This document shows, one piece after another, positions 44,837 to 52,661 of a stretch of DNA of 60,443 bases. The position numbers were made by a program, and so were the translations under genes. The DNA is from Spirochaetaceae bacterium (GTDB lineage: Bacteria > Spirochaetota > Spirochaetia > Treponematales > Rectinemataceae). Numbering within the stretch: position 1 is the stretch's first letter; the number at the start of each line of letters is the position of its first letter. The stretch is from NCBI GenBank assembly GCA_025355995.1, contig JANXYQ010000074.1, positions 1 through 60,443 of the forward strand, read 5' to 3'. Under the pieces are notes generated by a model. The model had not been told where the DNA came from. It worked only from the letters and a program-made list of their open reading frames with translations, and ran no database searches.

Positions 44837-44887
44837 GAGCGTTGATATCCCGCCGCGCATGATATAGGATGAAAAAAAGGGGGAGCG

Positions 44888-47197
44888 ATGACCAAGCTGG
44901 ACCTCGCGAACGGCATGACCTTGGTCGAGATGCCGGAAGCGGACCTCTCGGTGCTCTGCGGCTGCCCCGAGAACGCAGTCAAATTCCTGATCAAGCGCGG
45001 CGTCATCCGAGAGATCGAGCGGGCCGGAGTCCGCTTCGAGACTGGCCCCAACGCCATACTCCTCTCCGAGCTGCCCGTCCAAGCCGGCCGCTTCCGCAAC
45101 CTGGGCGAATTCCCCGTCCTCCAGATGCTCTACCGCCAGGGCATGATCATACCCGGCCACCCCGGCAATACCGGCCTCAGGCCCATGATCATCGGGATGC
45201 GCGACCAGGTCGAGGCGCAGAGCCGCTACATCTACTCCGGCAACTACGGCCTCGGCTCCGTCGATGAGCTCATGGCCGCGGGGCTCTCTCGGGCGGACGC
45301 GGAAGAGCAGTTCCGGATGAAGCTCAAGTTCGCGTTCGGCTCGATCAGGAGGACCGAGGAGCTCCTCGACCTGCGCGTCTTCGACGGCCACGCGATCGAG
45401 CTCCGCGGGGGCGCCTTCGTCAGCCGGATCGGGCTGAACCGCTACGAGTTCCTCTGCGCCGGAGAATCGGTCCGCGTCGACCTCGACCCCGGGGAGAGGC
45501 ACGAGCTCCCCTACGAACTCTCGCGCCTTGGAGAGGCGCGTCGCCTTGGAGAGGCGGGCAGAGCCGTCTCCAGGGACGCCTTCTCGGTCGTCCACCTGGG
45601 CGAGGGCGACGGCTGGGACACCGAGAGGCCCTGCATGTCCTCCCTCGTCGTATTCCGAGGCGATTATTATCTGGTGGACGCGGGGCCCGACATCGAGGCG
45701 AGCCTCGCGTCCTTGGGCGTCGGCATCAACGAGCTCCGCGGCATTTTCCACACGCACGCCCACGACGATCACTTCGTCGGGCTCACCGCCCTCCTCCGCG
45801 CCGAGCGGAGGCTGGGCTATTTCGCGGCGCCTTGGGTCCGCGCCTCGGTCGAGGCCAAGCTCCGCGCCCTCACCGGCATAGGCGAGAGCGAGTTCCGCCG
45901 GTACTTCGACGTGCGCGACCTCGATGCCGGCCGATGGAACGACGTGAACGGCCTCGAGGTCTTCCCGACGATGTCCCCCCACCCGGTGGAGACGACCATC
46001 CTGCGCTTCCGCGCCCGGGACGGCGAGGGCTACCGCAGCTACGCCCACCTCGCCGACGTCGCCTCCTTCGCCGTCCTCGACTCGATGGTCACGGCCGATC
46101 CTTCTCTCCCAGGCATCTCGGCGGAGCTCGCGGAGAGGACCAAGGCCGCCTATCTGGAACCGGCAGACGTCAAGAAGATAGACGCCGGAGGGGGCATGAT
46201 CCACGGAGCGGCCGCCGATTTCTCGGGAGACACGTCGGGACGGGTTCTCCTGAGCCACAACGCGGCCGACCTAGGCTCCGGGGGAAGCTCCGAAGTCGCC
46301 CGCTTCGGCGAGATCGACGCCCTCATCCCCGGCGCCTTCGAACGGATCAGGGCGGCCGACTCCGCGGCCCCTCCGGGCCTGAGCGGGCTCGAGGCCCTTG
46401 TCGCCCTCCTCGGCGGGAGCCCCGTCTTCGCCTCTCTCTCCGGGGAGTCGCTCAACCGCATCGCGGCGTCCGCGATTCGCTGCGCGAGGCCGGAGGGACG
46501 GAGACTCTGCGGCGAAGACGGCCCTCCGGCCCTCCTCCTGGTCGCGAGTGGCAGCGCGCGGGTGGTCTCGGGCGACAGGACGATCGGCTACCTCCGCCCG
46601 GGCGATTGCTTCGGCGAGGAAGGCATCCTCGTGGAGGGCCGCTGCCTCTTCGAGGGCTGGGCGGCGGAGAGCGTCGAGGGCTACCTCGTCCCCGCCGCCG
46701 AGCTGGAGTCCAGGCCCATACTCCTATGGAGGCTTCGCGAGGCGCTGGAGGGCAGGCTCGCGGCGGTGAAATGCGACTTCGATTTCTCGTGGCGCCGCGC
46801 GTACTCGGTGGGGGAGGACGCGCTGGATCGTCAGCACGAGAGGCTCTTCGCCCTCATAGGCGCTCTCGACGCGGCGATGAAGCGCCCGGAGTCCTGCCCC
46901 GACTCGGCGGGGCTCTTCGAGGAGCTCGCGGACTTCGCCGCCCTGCACTTTGCCTCGGAGGCCAGCTACATGCGCGCCGGCGGCTGTCCCGAGATCGCGG
47001 CCCACGCCCGCGAGCATGAGGCGCTGCTCCGCGATTTCTGGGCCTTCCGCGAGCGCCTGGACTGCGGCGACGCCGGCGTCCTCGAGGACTTCGACGGCTT
47101 CCTCAAGGACTGGGCGATCAAGCACACCCTGCTTATCGACAGGCAGTACATGCCTTTCCTACCCTCCGCCCTTGCCTCCGGAGGCTCCTCCCGTTAG
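44888..47197 (+). CDS. Metallo-beta-lactamase / cyclic-nucleotide-binding / hemerythrin fusion
   Basis: A 769-residue cytoplasmic protein. Residues 1-230 form an uncharacterised N-domain (VLQMLYRQGMIIPGHPGNTG). Residues 240-490 are a metallo-beta-lactamase fold with HTHAHDDH near 288, MSPHPVE, AHLAD and LLSHNAAD as metal ligands. Residues about 500-610 are a cNMP-binding-like barrel (YLRPGDCFGEEGIL). Residues 635-765 are a hemerythrin with DRQHERLF, HFASEASYM, HAREHE and HTLLIDRQY. Both ends can carry di-iron sites, so oxygen or nitric-oxide sensing or detoxification is plausible. I recall similar layouts in other bacteria, with no proven role. Ribosome site GGGGGAG. Confidence 0.8.
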   Translation: MTKLDLANGMTLVEMPEADLSVLCGCPENAVKFLIKRGVIREIERAGVRFETGPNAILLSELPVQAGRFRNLGEFPVLQMLYRQGMIIPGHPGNTGLRPMIIGMRDQVEAQSRYIYSGNYGLGSVDELMAAGLSRADAEEQFRMKLKFAFGSIRRTEELLDLRVFDGHAIELRGGAFVSRIGLNRYEFLCAGESVRVDLDPGERHELPYELSRLGEARRLGEAGRAVSRDAFSVVHLGEGDGWDTERPCMSSLVVFRGDYYLVDAGPDIEASLASLGVGINELRGIFHTHAHDDHFVGLTALLRAERRLGYFAAPWVRASVEAKLRALTGIGESEFRRYFDVRDLDAGRWNDVNGLEVFPTMSPHPVETTILRFRARDGEGYRSYAHLADVASFAVLDSMVTADPSLPGISAELAERTKAAYLEPADVKKIDAGGGMIHGAAADFSGDTSGRVLLSHNAADLGSGGSSEVARFGEIDALIPGAFERIRAADSAAPPGLSGLEALVALLGGSPVFASLSGESLNRIAASAIRCARPEGRRLCGEDGPPALLLVASGSARVVSGDRTIGYLRPGDCFGEEGILVEGRCLFEGWAAESVEGYLVPAAELESRPILLWRLREALEGRLAAVKCDFDFSWRRAYSVGEDALDRQHERLFALIGALDAAMKRPESCPDSAGLFEELADFAALHFASEASYMRAGGCPEIAAHAREHEALLRDFWAFRERLDCGDAGVLEDFDGFLKDWAIKHTLLIDRQYMPFLPSALASGGSSR
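45524..45556 (+). repeat. Tandem 18-bp duplication inside the fusion gene
   Basis: CGCCTTGGAGAGGCG occurs at 45524-45538 and again at 45542-45556, giving RLGEA-R-RLGEA in the protein between the N-domain and the metallo-beta-lactamase domain. It keeps frame and looks recent. Confidence 0.85.
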
Positions 47198-47221: not shown

Positions 47222-48256
47222 GTGGAGTCAAAGCCCGATACAGGCCTCGCGCTCGAAGCGGGAGCGCTCTGCGGCCGAGTCCGCGCCGAGATGGCGAAGC
47301 GGATCGTCGGCAAGGACGAGATAGTCAGGGGCATCCTGATGGGTGTCATCGCGGGGGGCCATGTCCTCCTCGAGGGCGTTCCCGGCCTCGCCAAGACCCT
47401 CGCCGCGAAGACCTTCGCGGAGATAGCGGGCCTCGATTTCGGCCGCATCCAGTTCACCCCCGACCTCCTTCCCGCCGACATCACCGGCTCCATGATCTAC
47501 GAGCAGGCGACGGGCCGCTTCGTGCCGAGGCGGGGGCCGGTCTTCGCCAATATCATCCTGGCGGACGAGGTCAACCGCGCACCTGCCAAGGTCCAGTCCG
47601 CCCTCCTCGAGGCCATGGAGGAGAGGCAGGTCACGATAGGCGACGCCAGCCTGCCCCTGCCGGAGCCCTTCTTCGTGCTCGCGACCCAGAACCCCATCGA
47701 GCACGAAGGAACCTATCCCCTTCCCGAGGCCCAGCTGGACCGTTTCCTCGTCAAGGTGCGCGCTACCTACCCGAGCCAGTCCGAGGAGGAGCGCATCGTG
47801 CGCCGCATCGGCGCCGAGAAGCCCGAGGCGGTGAGCCGCGTGCTCGGGGCGGGAGAGATAGCCCGGCTTCGCGCGGCCGCCGAGTCGGTGCGCGTGGACG
47901 ACGCGCTCGCGGCCTACGCGGTGCGGATAGTGCGCGCTACGAGGCCGCGCGGCCGCGTGACCTCCGCCGGCGCGGCAGCCGGCGAGGCTTCCTCCCACGA
48001 GAGCGCCGACCTCGCCCGCGACATCTCCCGCTGGGTCGAGTACGGCGCCTCGCCCCGCGCCTCCATACATCTTTTCAGGTGCGCCCGGATATCGGCCCTC
48101 CTGGACGGCCGATCCTATGTCCTGCCGGAGGACGTGAAGTCCGCCGCCCCAGACGTGCTCCGGCATCGCGTGGTCCTCTCCTACGAGGCCGAGGCCGAGG
48201 GCGTCGGGGCCGAAGCGGTCATCGCCCGCGTGCTCTCGTCCCTGACCCTCCCGTAG
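47222..48256 (+). CDS. MoxR-family AAA+ ATPase
   Basis: A 344-residue AAA+ chaperone-like ATPase: Walker A GVPGLAKTLAAK near residue 57, Walker B ILADEVNRAPAKVQSALLEAMEE near 118, and FVLATQNPIEHEGTYPLPEAQLDRFLVK near 158 (sensor 1 and the MoxR signature). MoxR proteins mature or regulate VWA-domain partners, and the VWA proteins here lie downstream. An EASSHESADLARDIS stretch replaces the usual GASPRA lead-in region but the rest is normal. The start is GTG 47222 behind AAGGAGG; first gene of the Bat operon. Confidence 0.92.
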   Translation: MESKPDTGLALEAGALCGRVRAEMAKRIVGKDEIVRGILMGVIAGGHVLLEGVPGLAKTLAAKTFAEIAGLDFGRIQFTPDLLPADITGSMIYEQATGRFVPRRGPVFANIILADEVNRAPAKVQSALLEAMEERQVTIGDASLPLPEPFFVLATQNPIEHEGTYPLPEAQLDRFLVKVRATYPSQSEEERIVRRIGAEKPEAVSRVLGAGEIARLRAAAESVRVDDALAAYAVRIVRATRPRGRVTSAGAAAGEASSHESADLARDISRWVEYGASPRASIHLFRCARISALLDGRSYVLPEDVKSAAPDVLRHRVVLSYEAEAEGVGAEAVIARVLSSLTLP

Positions 48257-48262
48257 AGTCGC

Positions 48263-49186
48263 GTGGAACGGGACGAGCTTCACGACAGGATCCGGCGGCT
48301 GCTCTTCGCGTCGCCCGCCCTCGCGCGCGCCTTCGCGCGGGGGGACTTCCGTTCGGTCTTCAGAGGCAAGGGCATCGAATTCGACTCGCTCCGCGAATAC
48401 TATCCCGAAGACGACGCGCGCCTCGTCGATTGGAGCGCGACCGCCAGGCTCGGGAAGCCCTTCGTCCGGACCTATCGAGAGGATCGCTCCCTCACGGTAT
48501 TCCTCGTCGTCGACGTCTCCCCCTCCATGGACCAGGGCTCCGGTACTCTCTCCAAGCTCGACGAGGCGGTGCTCGTCTCCTCGCTCGTCGCATACGCCGC
48601 CCAGCTGCGCGGGCTTCCCGTGGGCTGCCTGCTCTTCGCCGACGGCATCAAGCGGAGCCTCCCCCCGAGGAGGGGCAAGGCCCATGCCCTGGCCGTAGCC
48701 TCATGCGCGAGCGCTACCGCGCGCGGCGGCGGCCAAAGGTCGACCGACCCTGGCCCGGCCGCCCGTAACCCTTCGGACGGAAGGCCGACCGACCTCGCTC
48801 TGGCCCTCCGGACCGTGAGCCAGGTGCTCAAGCGCCGAAGCCTCGTCCTGATCCTCTCGGACTTCCGCGCCGAGGCCTGGGCTCGGCCCCTCGGCGAGCT
48901 CGCACGGAAGCACGACGCCGTGGCGGTCAGGATCTCCGACCGCTCCGACCTCGAGCTTCCCCGGGCCGGCTCCTTCTTCGCGGCCGACCCCGAGACCGGC
49001 GCCCAGGCCTGGCTGCCCCTCGGGAGCCCCGCCTATCGCGAGCGCTGGCGCTCGGGCGGCAGGGCGAGGCGGAAGGCCGACCTCGAGGCCTGCGCCCGCG
49101 CCCGCGTGAGCGTCCTCGAAATCGGCACCGAGGAGGACCCCGCCCTCAAGCTCCTCGAGTTCTTCGAGCGCAGGAGGGCGAGGTGA
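48263..49186 (+). CDS. DUF58-family protein (VWA-like)
   Basis: A 307-residue protein with the DUF58 core FDSLREYYPEDDARLVDWSATARLGKPFVRTY near residue 37 and a VWA-like MIDAS start VVDVSPSMDQGS near 87. A Gly/Ser/Pro-rich loop near 155-175 (ARGGGQRSTDPG) precedes LVLILSDF. DUF58 proteins sit between moxR and bat genes and are thought to act with them at the membrane. Start is GTG 48263, 6 bp after moxR; it overlaps the next gene by 4 bp. Confidence 0.88.
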   Translation: MERDELHDRIRRLLFASPALARAFARGDFRSVFRGKGIEFDSLREYYPEDDARLVDWSATARLGKPFVRTYREDRSLTVFLVVDVSPSMDQGSGTLSKLDEAVLVSSLVAYAAQLRGLPVGCLLFADGIKRSLPPRRGKAHALAVASCASATARGGGQRSTDPGPAARNPSDGRPTDLALALRTVSQVLKRRSLVLILSDFRAEAWARPLGELARKHDAVAVRISDRSDLELPRAGSFFAADPETGAQAWLPLGSPAYRERWRSGGRARRKADLEACARARVSVLEIGTEEDPALKLLEFFERRRAR

Positions 49187-50106
49187 CCCGGACGAGGCCC
49201 GCCCTCGCCCTGGCGGCGCTGCTGGCCGCGCCCCATGGCGCGCCGCTCTACGGGGCGACGATCGACGCTCGCAGCCTGGCGTACATTCCGGCCAGCTATT
49301 CCCCCGGAGAGGAGCTCGTCGCGCAGGCGACCATCCTCCCCGAAGCAGGGGAGAAACTCGAGGCGCTCGACCTGAAGGCCGGCGCGGGCTTGCCGGCCCA
49401 GGGCCCGGAGGCCGATCCCGAAATCCGCGAGCTCCGAATCTCGCGAGCCGGCGCGATCTGGCAACTCAGTCTGCGGTTCGTGCCCTGGTCCCCGGGCCGT
49501 CTGCTCGTCCCCGCGATCCGCGTCAAAGGCCTGCAGATACCCGCCATACCCTATTCGGCGATCTCCGTCCTCGGTTCCGAGGACAGGGATCCCTCCCCGC
49601 CGCGGCGACAGCGCGACCCGCCGGGAACCGCGCTCTTCCTTTACGGCTTCGCCGGGCTCCTCCTGGTCCTGGTCCTGGGCGGGGCCGGCGTCGCCGCCTA
49701 CCTGGTGCCGGCCGCCCGCGCCCTGCTCGCCCGCCGCCGCGCGGCCCAGGCCTTCAGGCGCTTCGTCACCAGCCTCGACTATCTCGCCGCCGAGGCGGGG
49801 TCCGCCGCGCCCGCGAGCTTCTTCGCCGCCCTGTCGAGGGCCTTCAGGCTCTACCTGGCGACGCGGGTCCTCCCCTCGGCCCCGGCCCTCACCGCCGCCG
49901 AGATATCGGCCCTTCCGGATACGGCCTTCCCCGCGCCGGCGACGAAGGATAGGGCGGCCGCCTTCTTCGCCCAAGCCGACAGGGCGCGCTTCGGTGGCGA
50001 GGGCGCGGGATCGGCGAAGGCGCGCGAGGCGGCGGCCACCGCCGCGATAAGCGAGACCCGAATCCTGGCCGAGGCGAACGAGGAGGCCCTCCTTGCTCGT
50101 CTTTGA
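49183..50106 (+). CDS. Single-pass membrane protein of the Bat cluster (DUF4381-like)
   Basis: A 307-residue protein with a signal segment (residues 6-24), a beta-rich external region (SLAYIPASYSPGEELVAQATIL) and one membrane span near 148-172 (LFLYGFAGLLLVLVLGGAGVAA). A helical cytoplasmic tail follows (AFRRFVTSLDYLAAEA, DRARFGGEG near the end). The tail resembles DUF4381 proteins that sit with MoxR and Bat genes. Its exact role is unknown. Overlaps the DUF58 stop and the BatA start. Confidence 0.7.
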   Translation: MTRTRPALALAALLAAPHGAPLYGATIDARSLAYIPASYSPGEELVAQATILPEAGEKLEALDLKAGAGLPAQGPEADPEIRELRISRAGAIWQLSLRFVPWSPGRLLVPAIRVKGLQIPAIPYSAISVLGSEDRDPSPPRRQRDPPGTALFLYGFAGLLLVLVLGGAGVAAYLVPAARALLARRRAAQAFRRFVTSLDYLAAEAGSAAPASFFAALSRAFRLYLATRVLPSAPALTAAEISALPDTAFPAPATKDRAAAFFAQADRARFGGEGAGSAKAREAAATAAISETRILAEANEEALLARL

Positions 50107-51079
50107 TCGCCCCTGGGCCCTGGCCTTCATCGGCCTCGTCCCCGCCTTCATGGCCCTAGGCCGCTATCTCCGCACGCGCGGGGGCGCCGCCGCCTTCCCC
50201 CTGCCCGAGTCCCCGCCCGGGGTCCCCGTCCTCTCGAGGCTGGCCCGCTTCGCGCGGGCTAGCGCCCTCTGGCTCGGCCTCGCCGCCGCGGCGCTGGCGG
50301 CCGCCGGCCCCGCCCTGGTCTCCAAGCGGGTCGTCTACCTGGGCAGGGGCAACGAGGCGATCATCGTCCTCGACGTCTCGCCGAGCATGGCCGCCTCCGA
50401 CTTCGCGCCCACGAGGCTCGACGCGGCCAAGGCGATAATCGGCGACTTCCTCGCGACGAGGCGCAACGAGAGCGTCGGCCTCGTCGCCTTCGGGGGCGAG
50501 GCGGCCCTCGTGTGCCCTCCGACTACCGACTACGCGTCCATCGCGGCGCGGCTCGGCAGCCTCGAGCCGGGGCTCTACGGCGAGGGCACGGCGATCGGCG
50601 CGGGCATAGCCACCGCCATCGCCCACGCCGCGCGATCTTCGGCTCCCGAGAAGCAGCTCATCCTCCTCACCGACGGGGAGAACAACGCCGGGTCCATGGA
50701 CCCGGCGACGGCGGCCCGCGCGGCCGCGCGCTTCGGGATCGCCCTCTCGGTGATAGGCGTGGGGAGCGCCGGGGAGATACCCGTCACCTACGTCGATCCC
50801 GTCACGCGCCAGAAGCGCAGCGGCATTTACCGCTCGGATTTCAACGGCGCCTCCCTGGAAGCGCTTTCCCGCACGGGGGGCGGATCCTACTACGGCGCCG
50901 AGAACAAGGCGGCCCTCGCCGCTGCCTTCGTCGCCCTCGCCGAGCGCAGCTCCTCCCTCGCCCGTTCGCGGAGCCTCTCCTCGGAGGAGGGCTACACTGC
51001 GATGGCTCTCGCCCTCTCCCTGGCCCTCCTCGTCCTCGCCCGCCTCCTCGGCCTCGCGGGCGGGGGAGGGCGAGCGTGA
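50093..51079 (+). CDS. batA: BatA-type VWA-domain membrane protein
   Basis: A 328-residue protein with two N-terminal membrane segments (about 5-20 and 55-77), a VWA domain with a complete MIDAS (DVSPS at 94, PTTD near 142, LTDGENN near 192) and a C-terminal membrane segment (302-320). In Bacteroides bat genes are linked to aerotolerance; in spirochaetes similar operons are linked to envelope stress, though the mechanism is unclear. The start is TTG 50093 with AGGAGG, overlapping the upstream gene by 14 bp. Confidence 0.85.
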   Translation: MLVFDRPWALAFIGLVPAFMALGRYLRTRGGAAAFPLPESPPGVPVLSRLARFARASALWLGLAAAALAAAGPALVSKRVVYLGRGNEAIIVLDVSPSMAASDFAPTRLDAAKAIIGDFLATRRNESVGLVAFGGEAALVCPPTTDYASIAARLGSLEPGLYGEGTAIGAGIATAIAHAARSSAPEKQLILLTDGENNAGSMDPATAARAAARFGIALSVIGVGSAGEIPVTYVDPVTRQKRSGIYRSDFNGASLEALSRTGGGSYYGAENKAALAAAFVALAERSSSLARSRSLSSEEGYTAMALALSLALLVLARLLGLAGGGGRA

Positions 51080-52059
51080 GCTTCTCCCGCCCCGAGCTGC
51101 TGTGGCTCGCCCTCCTCGCCCTCCCGGAGCTGGCCCTCTCCCTGCGCCGCGGGCCCAGGCTCCGCGCCTCCGTCGAGGGCCTGGCGGGCCCGCGCAGGCG
51201 CGCGCGCGCGGGCAGGCTCTTCGCCGCGCTGTCCGCAGCCTCGGCGGCCTCGGCGGCCCTCTTCATTGCCTGCGCCGCGCTGGCCATGGCGGGACCGTCC
51301 TGGGGATCCCGCGGAGCCGCCGCCGAGCGCAGGGGCCTCGAGTCGGCCGTCGTCCTCGACGTGTCGCGCAGCATGGAGGCGACGGACGTCAAGCCTTCGC
51401 GCCTCGAGGCGGCGAAGGGACTCGTCCGCTCCATCCTCTCCGGATCCGATGGCGCCTCCTTCTCCCTGGTCGCCGCGAAGGGCGCGGGCGTCCTGCTCGT
51501 CCCGATGACCGAGGACTCCTTCGCCTTCGAGGACGCCCTGGACTACGCGAATCCGGAGGCGACCACCGCCCCCGGCACCGACCTCGAGAGCGGGATCCGC
51601 GCCGGCTTGGCCTCCTTCACGCCCTCGGGCGCCCAGGGCAGGATACTCTTCCTCTTCTCGGACGGCGGAGAGCTCTCTGGCTCGAGCCGGAGGGCGATCG
51701 AGGAGGCGGCGTCCGCGAGGGTCCGCCTCGTCGTGGTCGGCGTGGGCGGGAGCGAGGCCGTCCAGGTGCCCGGACCCGAAGGCGCGCCGCTCACCGGTCC
51801 CAAGGGCCCGGTCAGGAGCGCACAGGACGCCGCGCGCCTCAAGGCGCTCGCGGCCGTCTCGGGCGGACGCTACCTCGATGCCGCGGACGCGGGAACGGGC
51901 GCCGCCCTCGCCCTGGAGCTCTCGTCCGCGCGGGGAACGGGCACCCGAATCGAGTACTCGCGCGTCGACAGGCGCGGCCTCTTCGCCCTCCTCGCGCTGG
52001 CCTTCCTGGCCGCCGCGATCCTCTGCGGCCTGCTGTCGACCCGGGGGGCGCGAACATGA
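51076..52059 (+). CDS. batB: BatB-type VWA-domain membrane protein
   Basis: A 327-residue paralogue of BatA: membrane segments near 6-20 and 50-75, MIDAS residues in VLDVSRSMEATD (about 95), PGTDLESG and LFSDGGELSG, and a C-terminal segment (301-320). Start at GTG 51076, overlapping the batA stop (GTGA), so the two are coupled. BatA and BatB probably assemble together, with MoxR remodelling them. Confidence 0.85.
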   Translation: MSFSRPELLWLALLALPELALSLRRGPRLRASVEGLAGPRRRARAGRLFAALSAASAASAALFIACAALAMAGPSWGSRGAAAERRGLESAVVLDVSRSMEATDVKPSRLEAAKGLVRSILSGSDGASFSLVAAKGAGVLLVPMTEDSFAFEDALDYANPEATTAPGTDLESGIRAGLASFTPSGAQGRILFLFSDGGELSGSSRRAIEEAASARVRLVVVGVGGSEAVQVPGPEGAPLTGPKGPVRSAQDAARLKALAAVSGGRYLDAADAGTGAALALELSSARGTGTRIEYSRVDRRGLFALLALAFLAAAILCGLLSTRGART

Positions 52060-52661
52060 GGGGCGTCGCCGTCCTGCTCGCCCTATCGGCGGCGGCCCTC
52101 TCGGGCTGCGCGCGCGTCGCCGACTACGCCCGCGTCGTCGAGGCCAACCGCCTCCACGAGCGGGGCGACTACCAGGGCGCGATGGTCTCCTACCTGGGCG
52201 CCGCTCGGTCCTCCTTTTCCGCGACCCTCGACTACGATCTCGCCAACGTCTACGCGCGGCTCGGCGAATACGGCGCGGCCTCCGAGCTCTACTCCGCAGC
52301 AGTCCGGGAGAGCGAATCGCCCCTTTCCGGCGAGCGGGCAATAGCCGCGGATGCCCGCTTCAACGAGGGCTACGCCCTCTTCGAGCGAGGCAGCTACGAA
52401 GAGTCGTGGAAGTCCTTCCGGACCGCCCTCGCCGGCGCGGATCCGGGAGGGGCCTTCGCGCGCGAGGCCAGGCGCAACCTGGAGCTCGCCTGGCGCGCGT
52501 GGAAGAAGAGCGCCCTCGCCCAGCCCCAGGCCATCGCGCCCAGCTCGCGCGGCGCCCCGGGAGGGGACGAGAGCGAGCTGAGGCTCCTCCAGCGCCTCGA
52601 GACCGGGCGATGGCGGCCGGGAAACGCCGCCCCGGGACCCTCTGCGGCGTCGGACTACTAG
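52056..52661 (+). CDS. batC: BatC/E-type TPR lipoprotein
   Basis: A 201-residue lipoprotein (signal ending LSGC at Cys 17) with two or three TPR-like repeats (ANRLHERGDYQGAMVSYLGAA, YDLANVYARLGEYGAASELYSAAV, FNEGYALFERGSYEESWKSF). The C-terminal tail is Pro/Ser-rich. It overlaps batB by 4 bp, and batD follows after one base. In Bat systems such proteins bridge the VWA proteins and BatD. Confidence 0.78.
   Translation: MRGVAVLLALSAAALSGCARVADYARVVEANRLHERGDYQGAMVSYLGAARSSFSATLDYDLANVYARLGEYGAASELYSAAVRESESPLSGERAIAADARFNEGYALFERGSYEESWKSFRTALAGADPGGAFAREARRNLELAWRAWKKSALAQPQAIAPSSRGAPGGDESELRLLQRLETGRWRPGNAAPGPSAASDY

Follow-up and report, generated by a model that had tools for sequence, protein, structure and literature searches.

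The class II cyclic nucleotide phosphodiesterases, which are built on the metallo-beta-lactamase (MBL) fold, include Apyc1, YhfI and yeast PDE1 (PMC9117128). Apyc1 is a homodimer in which two residues, E74 and Y112, act on the opposing protomer, and both of them are needed (PMC9117128). GbpA and GbpB of Dictyostelium are class IIb cNMP phosphodiesterases in which the MBL domain is followed by two cyclic nucleotide-binding (CNB) domains, and both enzymes are activated by cNMPs (PMC11988041). In human ELAC2, the long form of RNase Z and a tRNA endonuclease, a degenerate MBL domain is fused ahead of a catalytic one. Regulation by bacteriohemerythrin is found elsewhere, i.e. in Bhr-HD-GYP of Ferrovum, a cyclic-dinucleotide phosphodiesterase controlled by the redox state of its hemerythrin, and in VcBhr-DGC, where a cyclic-nucleotide enzyme is likewise regulated by redox state or O2 (PMC8846402). 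The DcrH hemerythrin domain, for its part, is attached to a chemoreceptor, and the single-domain bacteriohemerythrins are free proteins.

The gene described here lies in a Spirochaetaceae genome, at 44888-47197 of the forward strand of the window (the whole stretch of 60,443 nucleotides analysed), and its product consists of four parts: a degenerate MBL domain (pseudoMBL), a catalytic MBL domain, a degenerate CNB and a hemerythrin. By analogy, the nearest described layout would be that of GbpA/GbpB and the nearest logic that of Bhr-HD-GYP. With confidence about evenly divided, we read the protein as a class II (MBL) cyclic-nucleotide-like phosphodiesterase, a fused pseudo-dimer with a regulatory tail that ends in an O2/redox-sensing hemerythrin.

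The gene and its product

The open reading frame is real: a single uninterrupted frame of 769 amino acids with an ATG start, preceded by AGGGGGAG at 44878-44885, just 5' of the start codon, and by a promoter-like TTGATA-N17-TAGGAT at 44842-44870 on the same strand, which is a consensus match only (one found against 0.1 expected). The protein aligns end to end with relatives from many phyla. Pfam finds Lactamase_B (9.5e-10), Hemerythrin (9.1e-8) and cNMP_binding (3e-6), and together with the NCBIfam match discussed below this bears out the initial annotation, which had placed an MBL domain, a cNMP-type barrel and a hemerythrin in one protein. The full-length AlphaFold2 model is confident, with a pLDDT of 86.5 and a pTM of 0.86. 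The 67 relatives examined in the following were taken from the best 80 and from Spirochaete genomes, so that counts of architectures are biased to close relatives.

The catalytic MBL domain

The second domain (residues 228-482, 45569-46333, forward strand) is a probable phosphodiesterase according to its Lactamase_B and Apyc1 matches. Its HAHDDH motif (residues 290-295, 45755-45772, forward strand) is conserved in 67/67 relatives, and the whole set of metal ligands, i.e. H290, H292, D294, H295, H365, D390 and H457, is invariant among them, as is H439. The domain has everything that characterizes the binuclear hydrolases of the MBL superfamily: the HxHxDH motif and the downstream His, bridging Asp and His.

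Sequence profiles and structure both point to the class II cNMP phosphodiesterases as the closest relatives. A PDB search with the family profile returned Apyc1 as the best match (E 1e-6), hhalign of the MBL domain against an Apyc1-like profile built here gave 97% and E 2e-11 over 184 columns, and the structural match to Apyc1 (7u2r) reached Z 22.8 in VIA; YhfI, PqqB, PhnP-type proteins and the GMP/AMP-bound structures 3md7/3qh8 came next, within 1-2 Z units, and then yeast PDE1. Apyc1 and YhfI are the closest solved relatives of the domain and have identical metal ligands, but they are single-domain homodimers without a tail, in place of the pseudo-dimer proposed here. Judged by its sequence score the window protein is not an Apyc1, because it obtains 16.2 bits with PF23023 against a curated cut-off of 50 bits. 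We consider phosphodiesterase chemistry fairly likely; a cyclic mononucleotide as the substrate is less certain.

It counts against the phosphodiesterase reading that MBL-fold phosphoesterases vary widely in substrate. The scores of PqqB, the PhnP-family diphosphatase 6b9v and the arylsulfatase 8gyg come close to that of Apyc1 itself. The domain could accordingly belong to a hydrolase of another small molecule (a phosphonate or pyrophosphate diester, a lactone or a sulfate ester) with the same kind of tail, in which case the phosphodiesterase-like score would reflect the shared MBL core only. We regard this as unlikely, though as a serious competitor, given that Apyc1 ranks first by all three methods and that GbpA/GbpB provide a precedent with a similar domain order.

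The N-terminal domain and a proposed fused dimer

The initial annotation had left the first 230 residues as an unknown domain. Residues 1-212 (44888-45523, forward strand) are, as far as the predicted structure goes, a second, degenerate MBL fold. The domain folded alone by AlphaFold2 reached a pLDDT of 82; Foldseek gave Apyc1 (7u2r, E 7e-4) as the best match to this model, and in VIA-align all top 50 rows were MBL folds, the best being Apyc1 7t28 with Z 11.8 over 154 residues, with RNase Z 1y44 at Z 11.6. For residues 1-230 there was no Pfam family match above chance and no PDB sequence match, and profile-profile comparison of the N-domain with the MBL domain of the same protein and with Apyc1 detected no relation. 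Since sequence profiles do not detect it, the kinship of the two domains is one of predicted structure.

The N-domain contains no metal ligands. The HxHxDH segment is absent: the strand leading there runs on as the loop LSELPVQAGRFRN, which is followed by a helix starting at E74. The invariant residues are C24, E74, Y82, H91, N94, Y114, G118 and K145. A search of Spirochaetota for the N-domain outside the family gave three weak matches (E about 1e-4 to 7e-4), which we take as chance, as no long family-like open frame was found at these places, one of them being a LamG/ankyrin-like frame.

The comparison with Apyc1 is instructive at the positions that act in trans. In Apyc1 of phage SBSphiJ these residues sit in GGLE(74)EV and GGLRY(112). 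The catalytic MBL domain of the window protein has GLTAL at the place of Apyc1's E74, i.e. T/A instead of the trans-acting Glu, and the N-domain has its own invariant E74 opening the equivalent helix, followed after the next helix by a strongly conserved GNYGL loop; the conserved tyrosines Y114/Y120 lie by this RGNYGL loop. A Glu in the N-domain and T/A in the catalytic copy suggest that the fused halves share out the catalytic residues between them, as judged from the order of secondary structure elements and not from measured distances. We speculate, tentatively, that these proteins are class II phosphodiesterases of a bacterial family so far without description, derived from a homodimer by fusion and a split of functions between the copies, the N-terminal copy being metal-less and lending residues in trans, the C-terminal copy keeping the metals, and the whole often being gated by hemerythrin.

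The fused arrangement itself resembles ELAC2. Residues 1-481 of the model superpose on residues 58-755 of the human enzyme (366-384 residues, rmsd 4.2-4.7, Z 19-20), so that a degenerate MBL domain precedes a catalytic one in the same relative arrangement as in the long form of RNase Z. An enzyme of this type, with the two MBL domains processing or degrading RNA ends under control of the tail, would also account for the weak similarity to RNase Z profiles (TIGR02651, 3.3e-9). We consider it rather improbable. The TIGR02651 match covers only the surroundings of the HxHxDH motif and reaches 36.2 bits where the cut-off is 293 bits, by which measure the window protein is not an RNase Z; a separate RNase Z is encoded elsewhere in the genome (335 bits, over the cut-off); ELAC2 has neither CNB nor hemerythrin, and a tail of this composition is of the small-molecule signalling type.

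The CNB domain

The reading as a phosphodiesterase with a regulatory tail leads to the CNB region. One barrel remains (residues 505-629, 46400-46774, forward strand, with the C-helix at 610-629), assigned from Pfam, the model and column composition, and corresponding to the second CNB of the family (CNB2); its cNMP_binding score of 27.5 bits is exactly at the cut-off. According to the alignment, residues 483-504 (46334-46399, forward strand) form a linker at the place of the first CNB (CNB1), and the pLDDT of the model is below 50 at 483-498. CNB1, of about 126 amino acids, is absent from the window protein and from two relatives (L086 and L006), while the pair of CNBs is complete in 64 of the 67 relatives. 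At least two independent changes are required to explain this on the tree, and the window protein has lost its first CNB. The order of an MBL domain and two CNBs, common to these 64 relatives, is that of GbpA/GbpB, a likeness of domain layout; compared with the Dictyostelium enzymes the window protein has one CNB, not two, and an added hemerythrin.

Another difference concerns ligand binding. The CNBs of GbpA/GbpB respond to cGMP/cAMP, whereas the family CNBs mostly lack the phosphate-binding Arg: the position is C586 in the window protein, mostly S/C/A in CNB2 across the family (Arg in 9/67) and S or A in CNB1, with Arg rare. Because this Arg is missing here and seldom occurs in either CNB of the relatives, canonical sensing of cAMP or cGMP is doubtful. 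It is more likely that the residual CNB serves as a coupling element, or that its pocket takes a ligand other than canonical cAMP/cGMP. Of the cyclic-nucleotide sensor proposed in the initial annotation the barrel is thus retained and the sensing weakened.

The degenerate N-domain and CNB pockets, together with the lack of a conserved operon, would also fit a protein that is mainly a sensor or scaffold, one whose MBL part is no meaningful enzyme and which signals through conformational changes to protein partners. Against this very unlikely alternative stands the invariance of all catalytic ligands in 67/67 relatives, as well as the distribution of conservation along the chain. The MBL domain is conserved at 69% and the N-domain equally so (68%), as opposed to the 42-46% of the tail (CNB2 46%, hemerythrin 42%), which is what one would expect if a catalytic pair carried a drifting regulatory tail.

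The hemerythrin domain

The C-terminal domain (residues 633-758, 46784-47161, forward strand) is a bacteriohemerythrin according to NCBIfam NF033749 (2.7e-24, 85.7 bits, with a cut-off of 84 bits), to its closest PDB sequence, the bacteriohemerythrin 4xq1 (4.8e-12), and to the model. Five His, one Glu and one Asp make up the complete set of seven Fe ligands, namely H650, H687, E691, H706, H710, H746 and D751, and this part of the AlphaFold2 model is a four-helix bundle. DcrH-Hr and the single-domain bacteriohemerythrins, which are the closest solved sequences, likewise have all seven. The view of the initial annotation that the metal ligands are intact in the MBL and hemerythrin domains was correct for both.

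Among the relatives the hemerythrin is carried by 38/67 and absent in 29/67, and well-supported branches of the tree force at least six gains or losses. As the domain is missing in so many relatives and has been repeatedly gained or lost, the core function does not depend on control by O2 or redox state. Of the 37 complete hemerythrin domains, 25 retain the full set of ligands and in the other 12 a single ligand is missing: Gln is found at 706 in five relatives (L006, L009, L058, L077, L090), Asp/Glu at 746 in another five (L022, L025, L034, L041, L051) and Cys at 687 in two (L059, L079). These domains that are one ligand short, with their lineage-specific patterns, possibly have an altered O2 or redox behaviour.

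A second potential di-iron site in the MBL part, as suggested in the initial annotation, is not supported. Flavodiiron proteins have a Glu at the second position of the metal motif, and a redox protein made of a flavodiiron-like MBL reductase and a hemerythrin, for which one may cite the metal-binding nature of both domains and the flavodiiron MBL folds low in the structural list of the N-domain, is hardly credible, since the motif is HxHxDH and not HxExDH, with His at 292 in 67/67 relatives, flavodoxin and rubredoxin domains are absent, and Zn/Mn hydrolases lead the list of structural matches. From the suggested regulated hydrolase or reductase we accordingly keep the phosphodiesterase-like hydrolase and drop the reductase; the coupling of the hydrolase to an oxygen or redox switch is partly supported, by a hemerythrin with all seven ligands.

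A possible mechanism

The phosphodiesterase reading can be put together as follows. The protein would be a cytosolic class II (MBL) phosphodiesterase-type enzyme in the form of a fused, asymmetric pseudo-dimer. The MBL domain at 228-482 would hold the dinuclear metal site and perform catalysis, its substrate being most likely a cyclic mononucleotide or another small phosphodiester of similar kind. The domain at 1-212, its metals lost, would stand where Apyc1 and other dimeric relatives have their second subunit, and would possibly lend residues to the active site. The C-helix of the degenerate CNB runs towards the C-terminal hemerythrin, and we speculate that oxidation of, or O2 binding to, the di-iron hemerythrin might shift the CNB and C-helix and so change the activity. 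Bhr-HD-GYP and VcBhr-DGC offer the comparison for such control, even though their cyclic nucleotide is c-di-GMP, their enzymatic domains are HD-GYP or GGDEF, and both lack MBL and CNB.

If this is true, turnover of a cyclic mononucleotide is tied to the oxygen or redox state within one chain, in anaerobes and microaerophiles of several phyla, and the family is a bacterial counterpart of the Dictyostelium MBL-CNB-CNB phosphodiesterases as well as a clear example of an enzyme dimer that was fused and whose halves share out the catalytic residues. Gating by hemerythrin, if true, would be the first O2/redox control of an MBL phosphodiesterase for mononucleotides, not c-di-GMP.

Distribution and gene surroundings

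A survey of the architecture across genomes, as the initial annotation had proposed, found relatives encoded at 252 loci in GTDB species genomes, in Spirochaetota, Thermodesulfobacteriota, Pseudomonadota including Magnetococcales, Nitrospirota, Planctomycetota, Bacteroidota, SAR324 and others; Desulfonema magnum and Paramagnetospirillum marisnigri are among the carriers. Most sampled relatives are pseudoMBL-MBL-CNB-CNB, with or without hemerythrin. In Spirochaetota the N-domain is patchy, clearly carried by 11 of 296 genomes, chance matches aside, and every clear match lies in an open frame of family size (737-893 amino acids). The family is widespread in bacteria and no description of it was found in the literature searched, which also contained none that joins hemerythrin, metallo-beta-lactamase and cyclic nucleotide-binding domains; the architecture of the window protein may be among the 56 listed by a 2016 hemerythrin survey. 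Among plasmids there was no match to the family, and every phage match fell on an Apyc1-like or other MBL gene, at E 0.03 or worse.

The source genome (4.5 Mb) encodes 14 class III nucleotidyl cyclase domains. Co-occurrence with cyclases is uninformative as support, because cyclases are ubiquitous (55/55 Spirochaetes tested) and their excess in carriers of the family is not significant once corrected for genome size (t = 1.85). The genome also has a paralogue of 736 amino acids (L002 727-2937, reverse strand, G000:C5) with N-terminal pseudoMBL, MBL and two CNBs and no hemerythrin. There are six hemerythrin places in all, one of them at the C-terminus of a chemoreceptor-like protein (L003 73-1974, forward strand, G000:C7).

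No conserved gene neighbourhood was found across 90 loci, and so the neighbours do not point to a pathway. In the window, a MoxR-DUF58-VWA-TPR (Bat-like) operon at 47222-52658 (forward strand) starts 24 bp past the stop codon of the gene and may be co-transcribed with it. L139, L059, L073 and L021 also have MoxR within their flanks, its distance and orientation differing from case to case, and we do not count the operon as a conserved neighbour.

Stand-alone proteins above the cut-off of the Pfam family 'Anti-Pycsar Apyc1' occur in 43/99 relatives (L112-L131, e.g. L130, G000:C128), which makes the family name misleading for these host genes. In a SAR324 relative (L082 5992-8673, forward strand) another C-terminal extension replaces the hemerythrin, and this is probably the family member in which a Zn_protease-like domain (PF05618, 4e-24) was found.
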